55,955 bases of DNA from Deltaproteobacteria bacterium. GTDB lineage: Bacteria; Myxococcota_A; UBA796; GCA-2862545. The number at the start of each line of letters is the position of its first letter. Position 1 is the stretch's first letter. The notes under the pieces were generated by a model. It ran no database searches, was not told the origin of the DNA, and was given only the letters and a program-made list of their open reading frames with translations. The stretch spans positions 1-55,955 of the forward strand of contig SBGP01000021.1 of assembly GCA_006226595.1 (NCBI GenBank), given 5' to 3'. Below are positions 37,037 through 49,507 of the stretch, in pieces. The position numbers and the translations under genes were made by a program.

Positions 37037-37047
37037 CAGGCTGCTAG
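37033..37047. repeat. Palindrome CTAGCAGGCTGCTAG holding both convergent stop codons
   Basis: A 15-bp palindrome with a single central base. The plus-strand TAG (37034-37036) and the minus-strand TAG (37046-37044) are its arms. Its first 13 bases recur at 1727-1739 right at another gene end. The core resembles short ends of some insertion sequences, but no transposase is near. Confidence 0.7.
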
Positions 37048-40000
37048 GCCCGGCGGCGGATCAGTCCCAGCAGCGGCAGACCGAGCCACAGCGGCGCGGG
37101 TGAGCCCTGCGCGCAGCCGTCCTTGCACCCGCCGTCATCGTCGCCGCCGGGGGCATCGTCCCCGCCCGTGCCGGTACCGCCGGTGTCCGAGTCGCCACTG
37201 TCGGTGTCCGTCGGACCGCTGTCGGCAGGGCCCGTGTCCCCGCTGTCGGCGGTGCCCGTGTCGCCCGGGCCGGGGTCGCCCGAGTCACCGGTGTCGGCGG
37301 TGTCGCCCGTGTCGCCGCCCGGAATGCACGGCGCGCCACACGGCGTGGACCAGGTGCCATCGGCGCTCGGCGGGAAGCTCTCGACGGTCGCACGGACGTT
37401 GGTGAGCTCGGTCCACGGTCCCGCGTCGGCCACGCTCACGTTCAGCACGTCGTTGCGCAGGGTGAAGGTCCCCCACACCCCCGCCTCGCCGTTCCAGTGG
37501 TCGGCAATCACGTCCACGCCCGCCGTCTCGAGGCCAACCTCGGGGGCAAAGGCGATGTGGCCGTCATGGCGCATCATCGCGACGATCTGCACATCTTCCG
37601 TGCTCTGCACCATCTCGTTCGGCGTGGGGGTGGAGAGCGCAAGCAGGTAGCCGTCGCCGCGCTGATGAAGCCCCTGGATGCTGGTCACGCCGACGCCGTC
37701 CAGCACCCGCGCGGAGATGGGGTTGCCGTCGCGGTCGACGAGCATCGTGAACACCGCCGCTCCGGTGAGGTAGCCGGTCGTGCCGCCGACCATCCACCCG
37801 TCGCGAGCCGGCGCACCCACGTCGATGCCATCGATGTTGTGGTTGCCGGACCAGCGGTCGGTGAGGTCGAGGAACGGCACCCCGTCGTCGAGCAGCTGGT
37901 ACGTGTTGTGCCAGACGAGGTTGCCGTCGAGGTCGAACTCCGCGGCGAACAGCTCCTGCCGCGGCATGTAGTACTCGGGGTTGGTGCTGCCGTAGAGCAG
38001 CACGCTGCCGTCTTCGTGCGCCGCGCAGCCCCGAGCGTTGCCACTGGTCTTGCGGGACCACAGCAGGTTGCCGTCCCGGTCGAAGCGCATCACGGCGCCG
38101 TAGTTCTTGTAGCCGGTGTCATCGGCGGAGAGCTGATTCGTCGTGCCACAGAGCACCGCACCGTGCGCGTCGGCCAGCAGCCTCCACATCGTCAGCCCGC
38201 CGTCCGCGGTGATCTCCTCGTAGAACACGGGCTCGCCGGTCACCGGGTCATGACGTGCAATGCGCTCCTTGGAGCCCACGTTGTAGCGGTGCGCGGTCCA
38301 GATGTCGTCGGTGCCGTCCGGGTGGGTGTACACCGCCGTGTTCGGGGAGAACAGGGTGGAGCGGTCGGGTCGCCGCCACGCCCACTGCACGGCCCCCTGG
38401 TCGTCGACGCGGATGATGTCGCTCGCGAAGTGCACGGCGCCGCCATCCGGGAGCGCGTCCGCATCTCCGCCGAAGTCGGGCAGCTGGATGGCCCAGCCGG
38501 GCTGGCCATCGCGGCCGAAGCTCGCCAGGTGCGTGGTGATGCTCGCGCCGTCGCGCTCGGTGACGAGGTGGTCCCCCGCGAGGTCCGTCGCGAAGCCCCG
38601 ACCCGTGCCCCAGCCATCGAACACGGTCGCCCAGTGCTGGTCGCGGCCGCGGCCCGGCGTGCCGCCGCCCGGCGGCTCCTCGAGGGGCACGCCCTTCGGG
38701 GCGAGGCGGGAGTCCGTCCACGAGGTGTCGGCGATCGGAATGGGCACGAGCAGCAGCGAGCCCGTGAACGCCGTGTGCGCCTCGACGGCCGTGCCGGTCT
38801 GCACCGGGTCCGCGGCGTCGGGGTCGACGAGGATCTCGCCGCGTCCGCTGCCGCCGACCGTGTAGGCCACGGACGCCAGGCGATACGAGTCGGAGACGAA
38901 CAGTCGGAGGTCGCCGCCCACGCCGATCGACGCGTAGGCGTGGCTGTCCTCGGTCATTCGGGGAGGCGTCGCGTGGAGGACCTCGACCTCGCGGAAGCTC
39001 CGTGAGGAGCTGCCGCCACCGCTGTCGAGGTGCAGCACCGCCGCCTGGTGGGTGCGGATGTCGACGCCGGTGGTCACCCCGGCTTCGATCTGCACGTCCG
39101 CGTCGAGCAGCAGCTCGAACTCCACCGACGCGCTGAGGTTGGTCACCCCCACGGGCACGCTGGCGAGCTCGAACGCGATGGTTCCCAGGGCCCGTTCGTG
39201 GGAGAAGTCCGCGCCCTCCTCGGCGGTCACCGAGCCGACGAAGCGCGCCGTGAGCGTGATCTCGGCGTCGAGCTCGACGTCCCCCTCGCGCAGACGAAGC
39301 GCGACCGGCGCCGCGAGCTTCTCGATCAGCAGGTCCCCGGTGAGGGTCACGCCGGGGACGGGCTGCAGGTCGGCCACGTGAAGGCGAAGCAGAGGTCCCG
39401 CGCCCTCGAAGTCGGGGTTGTCCCACATGTACCCGGCGTCGATGGTGTCGGTGAGCAGGGCCACATCGCGGCGTCCGTCCTGTTCTGGAGGCGGCGCGTA
39501 GGTCTGGCGGAAGAACAACCGCCGCCCATCCGCATCGAGCGCCAGCCCCGCGTCGCCGGAGGAGAACACCAGCGTCGACTCGGCCGGCGTCACCCGCACG
39601 CGGCCGTTGACGTCCGGGGTGACGCTCTCGACTCGCATCGGGAACCAGGCGCAGTCGGCGGCGACCACCCGCGTCGGATCCCCGCCCGGCGTCGCCGAGA
39701 TCAGGTCCCCCGCCACCAGCCCGTCGAGGAAAGCGGTGGTCGACTCGAAGACCAGCGAGCCGTCCGTGTCCCGGAAGAGCACCACGTCCAGCGTCGCGTC
39801 GTCGATGAGCTTCTCGGGCGTCGAGGTGACGGTGACCTCGGGCGCACGCACGATGCCGTCGAAGCCCGTGGCCAGCGCGGTCTGGTACGCAGACTCGGAC
39901 GCGGTGGGCACGTACAGCTCGATCCAGTCGCCGGCGGAAGTCTCGCCGGGAGCGATCGGCCCGCCAAAGCTCAACCCGCTGGCGGCGTCGGTCTGGACCA

Positions 40001-40250
40001 CGCCCGCAGGCAGCTGCCAGGGCACGAAGCTCGCGAAGTCGTAGGTCGCCGGCCCGACGTTGGTCACGGTGGCGCTCACCCGAACCGTGCGCCCGTCGGC
40101 ATCGGGCGTGCTCTCGAGCTCGGTCCACGCAGTGGGCACGAGGTGCGGTGTCGGCATGGGTTGGATGTCCGATGCCCAGTGAGGGGGCGGACTTCCGGAC
40201 CCGAGATCACAGCCCGAGAAGGCCAGCTGAGCAAGCACGAAAAGCCACAT
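37044..40250 (-). CDS. Large lipoprotein with beta-propeller-like repeats and MYXO-CTERM-like tail
   Basis: A 1068-residue surface protein. The signal ends LAFSGC (Cys14). Residues about 30-500 are beta-rich with no recognised family. About 520-980 carry propeller-like repeats with DRDGNLLWSRKT, DLDGNLVWHNTY and DDQGAVQWAWRR, as in PQQ-type or delta-60 repeats. A DTGDTADTGDSGD linker leads to GCKDGCAQGSPAP, a short hydrophobic span and RRRA, the Cys-plus-anchor-plus-Arg layout of MYXO-CTERM. Having both N-terminal lipid and C-terminal sorting signals is unusual. ATG 40250 has GGGG 7 nt upstream and a good promoter at 40272-40300. Confidence 0.8.
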   Translation of the reverse strand: MWLFVLAQLAFSGCDLGSGSPPPHWASDIQPMPTPHLVPTAWTELESTPDADGRTVRVSATVTNVGPATYDFASFVPWQLPAGVVQTDAASGLSFGGPIAPGETSAGDWIELYVPTASESAYQTALATGFDGIVRAPEVTVTSTPEKLIDDATLDVVLFRDTDGSLVFESTTAFLDGLVAGDLISATPGGDPTRVVAADCAWFPMRVESVTPDVNGRVRVTPAESTLVFSSGDAGLALDADGRRLFFRQTYAPPPEQDGRRDVALLTDTIDAGYMWDNPDFEGAGPLLRLHVADLQPVPGVTLTGDLLIEKLAAPVALRLREGDVELDAEITLTARFVGSVTAEEGADFSHERALGTIAFELASVPVGVTNLSASVEFELLLDADVQIEAGVTTGVDIRTHQAAVLHLDSGGGSSSRSFREVEVLHATPPRMTEDSHAYASIGVGGDLRLFVSDSYRLASVAYTVGGSGRGEILVDPDAADPVQTGTAVEAHTAFTGSLLLVPIPIADTSWTDSRLAPKGVPLEEPPGGGTPGRGRDQHWATVFDGWGTGRGFATDLAGDHLVTERDGASITTHLASFGRDGQPGWAIQLPDFGGDADALPDGGAVHFASDIIRVDDQGAVQWAWRRPDRSTLFSPNTAVYTHPDGTDDIWTAHRYNVGSKERIARHDPVTGEPVFYEEITADGGLTMWRLLADAHGAVLCGTTNQLSADDTGYKNYGAVMRFDRDGNLLWSRKTSGNARGCAAHEDGSVLLYGSTNPEYYMPRQELFAAEFDLDGNLVWHNTYQLLDDGVPFLDLTDRWSGNHNIDGIDVGAPARDGWMVGGTTGYLTGAAVFTMLVDRDGNPISARVLDGVGVTSIQGLHQRGDGYLLALSTPTPNEMVQSTEDVQIVAMMRHDGHIAFAPEVGLETAGVDVIADHWNGEAGVWGTFTLRNDVLNVSVADAGPWTELTNVRATVESFPPSADGTWSTPCGAPCIPGGDTGDTADTGDSGDPGPGDTGTADSGDTGPADSGPTDTDSGDSDTGGTGTGGDDAPGGDDDGGCKDGCAQGSPAPLWLGLPLLGLIRRRA

Positions 40251-40271
40251 GACACACCCCAATGCCCGCTC

Positions 40272-40300: not shown

Positions 40301-40427
40301 GCGTTTATAGACAAAACGCCCACCGTTCGTGCGCCCGACACACCCACGGCTCGCCCCAGTGGCATCGAACCGCCACATCCCCACGCCGCGAATGCGCTAC
40401 GATTGTCGAGAACTCCGCCGAGGTGCC

Positions 40428-41132
40428 GTGCTCTCGCTCGTCTGGCTACTCACCGCTTCCGCTGTGGCGGCGGAGCCCTGGGATCCCTCGGGCACGTGGG
40501 TGCTCGAGTACCGGATCACGACCCGGGCCGACCTGCCGGTGGTGGGCTTCTTGAAGACCAACACCACGAACGTGGTCCTCGTGCAGCTGCAGCGCGACGG
40601 CGACGAGTGGGTGCAGCAGCACCTGCTGTGCTCGTCGACGACGAGCGGGGGGCTGGTGAAGTCCGAGCTGCCCGAGCCCTTCCTCGCGCGCATCGGGCCT
40701 CGGCACTACCCCGTGCGCATCGACGTCTCCCACGAGCTCGCGGTGTACGAGGCCGACACCGGCGCGTTCACCACCGGGTACGACCCCACGTGCGGGCCGC
40801 TGCCGGACGACATCGACGACCCCTGCGTCACCGACTGGGACCGCGACGGCATCGCCGGCGCCACCGCCCGGGTGAAGCCCCCGCTGTTCCCGTGGGGCGA
40901 GGTGTACGTCGCGCAGCGCAACCACATCGCGTTGCACGGCTCCGCCATCGACCCCGACCGCTTCGAGGGCTCCGTGCAGGTGCTCGCGCTCAAGACGCGC
41001 GTGCTCGGGGCGAGCAATCCCCGCTACGTGAAGAACCCGGTGATCCGCGTCGACGAGGAGAACAGCGTGTTCGTCATGGAGCGGGCGCGCCAGGCGAAGA
41101 GCTGCGAGGACGTGGTCAAGGGCTTGCGCTAG
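40428..41132 (+). CDS. Secreted protein of unknown function
   Basis: A 234-residue protein with a signal peptide (VLSLVWLLTASAVAAEP). The mature part is beta-rich (GTWVLEYRITTRADL) and carries three Cys (CSSTT, CGPLPDD, CVTDWDRDG) and a DxDxDG-like loop. Longer in-frame starts at 40329 and 40392 exist. I chose GTG 40428 because GAGG lies 4 nt upstream, the signal peptide begins there, and the likely -10 TACGAT (40398-40403) would leave an 18-nt leader. Its TAG stop interlocks with that of the convergent selenoprotein candidate (CTAG, 41129-41132). Confidence 0.65.
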   Translation: MLSLVWLLTASAVAAEPWDPSGTWVLEYRITTRADLPVVGFLKTNTTNVVLVQLQRDGDEWVQQHLLCSSTTSGGLVKSELPEPFLARIGPRHYPVRIDVSHELAVYEADTGAFTTGYDPTCGPLPDDIDDPCVTDWDRDGIAGATARVKPPLFPWGEVYVAQRNHIALHGSAIDPDRFEGSVQVLALKTRVLGASNPRYVKNPVIRVDEENSVFVMERARQAKSCEDVVKGLR

Positions 41133-41929
41133 CCGGGCGGAAACACGTCCCGCACGGCGCCGAGCACGAGGTCGTTGTCGCTGCGCAGGCGATAGTCCTC
41201 GGACTGGTCGATCCACCGCACGATGCCCTGCTCGTCGACGAGCACGGTGGTCGGAATCGCCATGGTCTTCACCGACGGCACCAGGGCGAGCGGCACGCCA
41301 AGCAGCTGGAAGCGCCCGGTGGAGAACTCGATGGCCTTGTGATGCTCGACGCCGTACGTGCGAATCACCGCGAGCTCCGGGTCGGCAAGCAGCGTGACCT
41401 GCCCCAGCGACGCGCCGTCCCGGTCGTGGTGGAAGTTCACGTCCGCCACGCTGTCCTTGGACAACGCGACGATGCGCACCCCATGGGCGTCGAGCTCGTC
41501 CTGCATCTGCGCGAAGCGCCGCAACTCGGCGCTACAGTAAGGTCACCAGTGGCCGCGGAAGAACTTGAACAGGGTGCGCCTGCCCACGAGGTCCTCCGCG
41601 GTGAACGGCTGCCCATGCCGATCGAGAGCCGTGAACGCGAGCATCGGCTCGCCGACCGCGATGCGCAGGTCGCCGATCGGGGTCTTGCGCTGCGAGAGCA
41701 GGAACAGGAACAGTGCCCCCATCACCGAGGCGACGAGCGCGGGCACGAGCACGGAGGCGTCGGCTCCGGCCCGGGCCATCGCGACCGCCGAAGCGACGAG
41801 GGCGGCGGTCTGCACGCTCAGGTGTCCGATCGGTCGCGGCGGCACGCGTCCCGAGGGCACGCTGCCCATGTAGGTGACCCAGGAGGCGAGCGACGCGAGG
41901 GCGGCGACGAGGGCGAGGACGAGGTTCAT
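41129..41929 (-). CDS. Candidate selenoprotein: membrane-anchored peroxiredoxin/AhpC-TSA-like protein with UxxC motif
   Basis: Read through the TGA at 41543-41545, this gives 266 residues. Three membrane spans (about 2-20, 39-54, 57-78) precede a thioredoxin-fold redoxin domain: LRIAVGEPMLAFTALD, TLFKFFRGHW, then Sec129-PYC132, SAELRRFAQMQDELDAHGV, VALSKDS and the cis-Pro segment TMAIPTTVLVDEQGIVRW. Relatives have CPYC at this place, so the TGA falls exactly on the catalytic Cys. A stem-loop starts 10 nt after the TGA. The frame is open and protein-like on both sides. ATG 41929 starts the first span; TTG 41950 is an alternative start. Likely a thiol/peroxide reductase at the inner membrane. 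The other reading is a pseudogene, which I think less likely. Confidence 0.85.
41515..41533 (-). promoter_or_regulatory. Putative bacterial SECIS hairpin
   Basis: Downstream of the recoded TGA, AGCGCCG (41533-41527) pairs perfectly with CGGCGCT (41521-41515), closing a five-base loop AGTTG (41526-41522). The loop starts 17 nt after the TGA and has a G in its first two bases, which fits the described bacterial SECIS rules for SelB binding. Confidence 0.65.
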
Positions 41930-43406: not shown

Positions 43407-44464
43407 GTGATCGCCCTGTGGACCCTCGTCGTCGCGGCTCAGGCCGCTTGTCCTTCGCTGCCCGCCGAGCTCGATGCTGCCGAGACGGCGCTCCAGGTCC
43501 TCGACCTGCCGGCCGCCGAGGCGTACCTCGACAACGCCGAGGCCGCGCTGGCCTGCGGACGCCTGCCCGACGCGAGCGAGGTGGCCCGCTTCCACTTCCT
43601 CGACGGCGCGGTGGCCCAGTTCATGGGCGACGCCCCGGCCGCGAAGCAGTCGTATCGCGCCGCGCTGGCCCTCGACCCGGAGGCCGGACTCGCGGGCTTC
43701 GAGTCGGCCCTGTCCAGTGTGGTCGACGAGGCCCGGGCCGAGACGCCGAGCCAGACCGGCTCGATCGAGGTCTCCCCCGCCCTTGCCGACCCGTGGCAGG
43801 TTCGTGTCGACCTCGGTGCGTCCACACCGACGCCCGTCGCCGTGATGGAGGGGCTGCACCTGGTGCAGTTCACGGACGCGGACGGGGCGGTGTTCGGGGG
43901 GCACGTCGTGCTCGTCACCGCGGACATGCCGGTCGTCGTGAACCACGACCTTCCGGCGACCCCGCCGGAGCCTGAGCGGGTGCGAAACCCCGTGGATACG
44001 AGCTTCACGGTGCGCCTCGGCATCGGCACGGGCTTCGCGTTCGGCAAGTCCCAGACGGCGACCGTCGACGGCACCACCTTCGACGAGCCGGCGTTCAAGG
44101 CGACCACTCCGGCGTCGTTGGGCCTGGACTTCGGCGTCGGCCCCGTGTTCTTCGAGGCCGAGGGCGAGGTCGGCGCACTGCTCGACGGCCACTACCTGGT
44201 GGAAGGAACCCCCTCCCCCGAAGCGACCAAGCTCGCGTGGGGCGTCGGCCTCAACGCCGGTGCGAACCTCGGCGACCTCGCCCTCGGCGTGGGCGGCGGC
44301 GCAGCCCTCCCCGGCCGCTACCGCGGCTACGCCCTGGCCCGGTTCACGCCCTTCCGCCGCGCCCCGGTGTCGCTCACCGCCCGCGCCGGCGTCCGCTCCG
44401 CGCACCGCCTCGGCGCCGAGCCGATGTTCGGCCTCACCGTCGCCTACGACCTGGGACTGCTGTG

Positions 44465-44465
<1 letters not shown>
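43407..44465 (+). CDS. Outer-membrane-type protein with N-terminal helical repeat region
   Basis: A 352-residue exported protein (signal peptide VIALWTLVVAAQAAC). Residues 20-110 are TPR-like helices with LDAAETALQVLDLPAAEAYL. About 110-185 is a beta-sandwich-like part. The last 160 residues alternate beta strands with Gly/Ala turns (VRLGIGTGFAFG, LGLDFGVGPVFFEAEG, FGLTVAYDLGLL), as in an outer-membrane barrel. GTG 43407 has GGAG 5 nt upstream; an upstream in-frame GTG at 43323 gives a non-signal N-terminus. It shares one base with the next gene (TGATG), so it is in the same operon as the giant repeat proteins and might export or anchor them. Confidence 0.7.

Positions 44466-49503
<5,038 letters not shown>

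Positions 49504-49507
<4 letters not shown>

Follow-up and report, generated by a model that had tools for sequence, protein, structure and literature searches.

In the published accounts drawn on here, peroxiredoxin-like (Prx-like) selenoproteins carrying a UxxC motif were described in the 2005 Sargasso Sea survey on the basis of 22 sequences, and were set apart from a second type of selenoprotein peroxiredoxin with a TxxU motif (PMC1088965). The GOS survey divided Prx-like selenoproteins into Prx-like 1-3 (PMC2398784), and a 2026 review lists a 'Prx-like thiol:disulfide oxidoreductase' (PF00578) as predicted with high confidence (PMC13188914). The latter source also gives a model of the bacterial SECIS element (bSECIS), comprising a stem of 4-16 bp, a loop of 3-9 nt with a G in its first two positions, a distance of 16-37 nt from the UGA and a minimum free energy (MFE) of -7.5 or lower.

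Here we analyse a stretch of 55,955 nucleotides (the window) from a Deltaproteobacteria bacterium, whose genome assembly comprises 7.23 Mb and is 97% complete. Based on comparison with homologous loci, combined with the Sec machinery of the source genome, we propose with high confidence that positions 41929-41129 of the minus strand constitute a single selenoprotein gene, in which SelB would direct insertion of selenocysteine (Sec) at position 129 of a membrane-held redox protein with a peroxiredoxin fold and a UPYC motif.

The reading frame and its selenocysteine codon

The frame extends on the minus strand from an ATG at 41929 to a TAG at 41131-41129, with a TGA at 41545-41543 (codon 129) as its sole interruption, and the joined product comprises 266 residues with Sec129 counted. 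Around the TGA it reads KFFRGHW-U129-PYC132-SAELRR. The initial annotation, made from the sequence alone, had pointed to two minus-strand frames in the same phase parted by one TGA and reading GHW-TGA-PYC. Both observations hold (FFRGHW-TGA-PYCSAEL in the joined frame), with the correction that the open part before the TGA covers 41546-41929 (128 codons) and not 41545-41929, i.e. an error of one base. As anticipated there, gene calling with translation table 11 splits the gene at the TGA. The features assigned to the locus, all on the minus strand, are as follows.

41129..41929, minus strand: complete coding sequence of the membrane-anchored peroxiredoxin-like selenoprotein, 266 aa, Sec129 (TGA), TAG stop; homology continuous across the TGA, AhpC-TSA domain
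41693..41926, minus strand: three membrane helices predicted at residues 2-23, 34-54 and 58-79; AlphaFold2 model and hydropathy
41132..41671, minus strand: predicted peroxiredoxin-fold domain (thioredoxin superfamily), residues about 87-266; VIA-align and Foldseek
41543..41545, minus strand: TGA codon, read as selenocysteine 129; 84 TGA and 25 Cys codons among 109 homologous loci
41534..41536, minus strand: Cys132 codon (TGT), closing the Sec-x-x-Cys motif; the protein's only Cys; invariant in alignments A1 and A2
41515..41533, minus strand: putative bSECIS hairpin, 7-bp stem AGCGCCG/CGGCGCT, loop AGUUG (41522-41526), -12.1 kcal/mol; agreement with the bSECIS model, and covariation

The gene converges with a plus-strand ORF at 40329-41132, and the two share four bases at their stop codons (41129-41132). 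Elsewhere in the window, a secreted-looking protein of 1072 aa (37044-40262, minus strand) has a linker rich in Gly, Asp and Thr and a GCAQGSPAPLWLGLPLLGLIRRR tail similar to a MYXO-CTERM sorting signal, and a very long plus-strand ORF (44237-49507) with repeated DxDxDG...CDGxDNDCDGxxD units and a C-terminal hydrophobic/RRR tail resembles repeat proteins of the MopE type that end in a myxobacterial sorting tail.

In comparison with relatives whose single in-frame TGA falls at this column, homology runs through the TGA uninterrupted, and in five homologues the start codon likewise lies exactly 128 codons 5' of the TGA. A search of 142 related genomes and of a named genome collection yielded 109 loci readable at column 129, some genes being present in both collections (duplicates were removed for the hairpin comparison below). 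Of these loci, 84 have TGA there, 15 TGC and 10 TGT, with no other codon present, i.e. the column holds Sec or Cys only. Among the 142 related genomes, relatives with exactly one in-frame TGA were recovered, those bearing Cys being mostly more distant, and in a phylum sample of 379 genomes 67 had a match, with exactly one TGA in almost every full-length member. Sec forms occur in metagenome-assembled genomes labelled Myxococcota/Deltaproteobacteria, Gammaproteobacteria, Binatota, Chloroflexi, Actinomycetota and Thermoanaerobaculia. Within this subfamily, the Cys forms derive mainly from Rhodobacteraceae-type isolates (Zongyanglinia, Parasedimentitalea, Shimia), Shewanella, Psychrosphaera and Marinomonas. 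The gene is patchily held, since it is absent from the one same-genus genome searched and from most same-family genomes; no relatives were found in viral contigs.

The SECIS hairpin and the decoding machinery

Downstream of the TGA, 9 nt are followed by AGCGCCG (41533-41527), AGTTG (41526-41522) and CGGCGCT (41521-41515), exactly the perfect 7-bp stem with loop AGTTG, beginning 10 nt past the TGA, that the initial annotation had described and linked to a bacterial SECIS element. The hairpin falls within every limit of the published bSECIS model, with a loop of 5 nt, a G at the second loop position, a stem of 7 bp, a UGA-to-loop spacing of 16 nt and a folding energy of -12.1 kcal/mol. No Rfam family matched the window, which is hardly informative for bacterial SECIS elements. 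Taken alone, the hairpin is weakly better than chance and not significant: its single-sequence fold scores z = -1.6 and is equalled by 16 of 200 dinucleotide shuffles, and among synonymous recodings 22% of draws contain a hairpin compatible with bSECIS and 5% one of equal stability. The signal above chance lies in recurrence, with a TGA at the same column, the hairpin and covarying stem pairs returning over dozens of independent genomes.

Across the family, 66 of 69 distinct close Sec-form relatives conform to the bSECIS model, compared to 0 of 14 Cys forms of the same subfamily, and in the conforming Sec forms the loop is AGTTG or AGTTA, always 16 nt from the UGA. The seven stem pairs are standard in 95.8% of cells in the Sec forms, as opposed to 22-44% when the partner strand is slid and 35% in the Cys forms. 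Pair 6 occurs as T-A, G-C or C-G and pair 2 as C-G or T-A, and all 79 Sec forms evaluated encode the loop Leu with TTG or TTA, whereas outside the loop these genes use TTR for 17.6% of their Leu codons. Stem pairing and codon bias together indicate an RNA-level constraint coupled to the TGA, and we consider the comparative evidence decisive for the Sec reading. Three of the 69 Sec forms (L085, L086 and L094) fail the ungapped model, possibly reflecting divergent SECIS elements. The gammaproteobacterial L085 (HTCC2143) and L094 retain the TGA and have GAATTAAA instead of GAGTTR; L086 has one mismatch in the stem. With the hairpin in almost every Sec form and in no Cys form tested, in closely related proteins, the family offers an unusually clean natural Sec/Cys comparison.

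All four genes required for Sec insertion, whose presence the initial annotation had left to be checked, were found in the source genome. SelB is full-length (624 aa, 297 bits over the cut-off) and carries the SECIS-binding winged helices SelB-wing_2 and SelB-wing_3, selA and selD score 489 and 257 bits, respectively, and a single tRNA-Sec with anticodon TCA (selC) is detected by both Infernal (63 bits) and ARAGORN. In the search of 142 related genomes, 13 of the 14 TGA-bearing genomes have selA; the exception, G039, is 78% complete, and the missing gene is probably explained by its incomplete assembly. Sec also appears to be used in at least three further redox proteins of the source genome. 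The three TGA-interrupted genes identified are each followed by a bSECIS-compatible hairpin, namely a SelW-like gene with a CxxU motif (L132, 1401-1760) and two AhpC/TSA redoxins reading FWUTRC (L145, C67:60900-62300) and AWUSHC (L146, C104:56700-58000).

These data bear on two other explanations of the TGA. That it represents a true nonsense mutation or an assembly error, leaving a pseudogene or two ORFs, would agree with the split produced by table-11 gene calling, but TGA stands at this column, without any further stop, in dozens of divergent genomes whose proteins are 30-60% identical, and the frame past the TGA is conserved, including P226, D232 and W239. We regard this explanation as having a negligible probability: a pseudogene or sequencing error was rejected because the TGA is conserved, and sequencing error in particular because the TGA recurs in many independent assemblies. 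Slightly less remote, yet still highly improbable, is the insertion of Cys or some other amino acid at the UGA by a suppressor or recoded tRNA. Cys is indeed the alternative residue at column 129, and recoded tRNA-Sec-like tRNAs that insert Cys have been reported in some bacteria. Against this stand the complete canonical set of selA, selB, selD and tRNA-Sec, the confinement of the hairpin to TGA forms, which a general suppressor would not need, and the identity of tRNA-Sec as the only UCA tRNA among the four tRNA loci inspected. A general reassignment of TGA to sense was likewise rejected, since the hairpin accompanies TGA alone and the genome has the full Sec set. The selenoprotein assignment of the initial annotation hence stands, in line with the Sec machinery in the genome, the restriction of the column to Sec or Cys and the recurrence of the TGA across independent assemblies.

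Fold, membrane anchor and proposed mechanism

The joined frame matches AhpC-TSA in Pfam (E=8.5e-24, 84 bits against a cut-off of 26) as well as Redoxin, and no NCBIfam model claims the protein above its cut-off. The models for PrxU (NF040737) and for a SelL-related redox protein (NF040769) score about 22 (22.4) and 28.6 bits against cut-offs of 270 and 120, respectively, and a scan of 13 family members returned the same families with similarly weak E-values. An AlphaFold2 model built with 39 sequences (mean pLDDT 93.1, pTM 0.88) supports the three N-terminal spans predicted by the initial annotation, with hydropathy peaks at residues 1-22 and 55-80. Aligned with VIA-align, the modelled domain superposes on solved peroxiredoxins such as 3hjp, 5k2j, 4mab and 1xxu with Z of 20-21.5 over 150-157 residues and rmsd of 1.7-2.7, and Foldseek matches peroxiredoxins at E of about 1e-9. 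By sequence search, ResA/DsbE structures rank first.

The protein has no redox residues besides U129 and C132, and both columns are invariant when Sec is counted as Cys; P226, D232 and W239 are among the conserved residues downstream. In TxxC peroxiredoxins, the peroxidatic Cys is the motif's second Cys-equivalent position, with Thr at the column of Sec129. Cys132 presumably aligns with that peroxidatic Cys. The initial annotation had placed the TGA at the catalytic Cys position; this is valid in so far as Sec129 replaces the first Cys of a thioredoxin-like CxxC. Averaged across the family, Lys and Arg number 2.5 in the helix 1-2 loop, 2.3 after helix 3 and 0.4 in the helix 2-3 loop. Since positive charges concentrate in the helix 1-2 loop and after helix 3, the positive-inside rule predicts an N-out/C-in topology with the redox domain in the cytoplasm.

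Sequence comparison shows the Sec decoding, the domain fold and the motif, and we infer the nucleophile, substrate, electron donor and membrane side in the following mechanism. SelB carrying Sec-tRNA(UCA) would bind the hairpin that starts 10 nt past the UGA, placing Sec at position 129, and the three N-terminal helices would hold the product in the inner membrane. Sec129 is most likely the nucleophile that reduces peroxide or disulfide, would then pair with Cys132, the only other thiol, as a selenenylsulfide, and may be regenerated by a thioredoxin-type donor.

Envelope linkage and relation to known systems

The search for conserved neighbours returned mostly antisense ORFs of the selenoprotein gene itself, and only one linkage was retained. 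In eight Sec-form relatives (L026, L028, L109, L113, L120, L121, L122 and L124), a DsbD/ScsB-like gene (DsbD_N, DsbD_TM and Thioredoxin_7) lies directly upstream on the same strand. Neither the window locus nor its closest relatives have such a neighbour; the source genome has genes with DsbD_N domains away from the selenoprotein locus. For those lineages the linkage argues for a role in the envelope, which sits uneasily with a charge bias pointing to a cytoplasmic domain. A serious, if less probable, alternative to a peroxide reductase is an envelope thiol:disulfide oxidoreductase or redox relay of the TlpA/ResA-like type, fed by a DsbD/ScsB-type transporter. The thioredoxin-like UxxC, the ranking of ResA/DsbE structures in the sequence search, the upstream gene in the eight relatives and the DsbD_N-domain genes elsewhere in its own genome all agree with this alternative. 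The family-wide charge bias towards N-out/C-in, structural neighbours that are peroxiredoxins at Z 20-21.5 and a window locus that, like its closest relatives, lacks the DsbD link speak against it. Reaching further, and in our judgement unlikely, is the proposal that Sec peroxiredoxin-like proteins tethered to the membrane make up a widespread family not modelled before, which in some lineages would work with a DsbD/ScsB-type transporter as a dedicated selenium-dependent electron relay beside or across the inner membrane.

As standard gene calling splits or truncates the gene, the membrane-held, peroxiredoxin-fold selenoprotein that we prefer is likely missing from many annotations of Myxococcota and marine Gammaproteobacteria.

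In the Caulobacter envelope, according to the accounts drawn on, the ScsB-TlpA-PprX pathway clears peroxides (PMC5403849, PMC9144841). The family described here resembles it, at that level of description, in tying a peroxiredoxin-type protein to a DsbD/ScsB-like transporter, in this case by gene linkage in the eight relatives, but differs in that the window locus is without the linkage, the charge bias points to the cytoplasm and Sec is used in place of Cys. With PrxU (NF040737, TxxU) the protein shares the peroxiredoxin fold and an active-site Sec, whereas its Sec is the first and not the last of the four-residue motif. The closest match, in a comparison made by description, is with the UxxC Prx-like selenoproteins, represented in the literature by WP_010940744.1 among others, to which the gene belongs: the protein carries both the PF00578 domain and the UxxC motif (U129-P-Y-C132), and shares with them an AhpC/TSA domain, UxxC instead of TxxU, a bSECIS just past the UGA and Cys homologues. 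Its three N-terminal membrane helices, which go unmentioned in the published descriptions compared here, set it apart and, together with the lack of a matching NCBIfam model, represent minor novelties, adding a membrane-anchored case to the Sec peroxiredoxin-like proteins.
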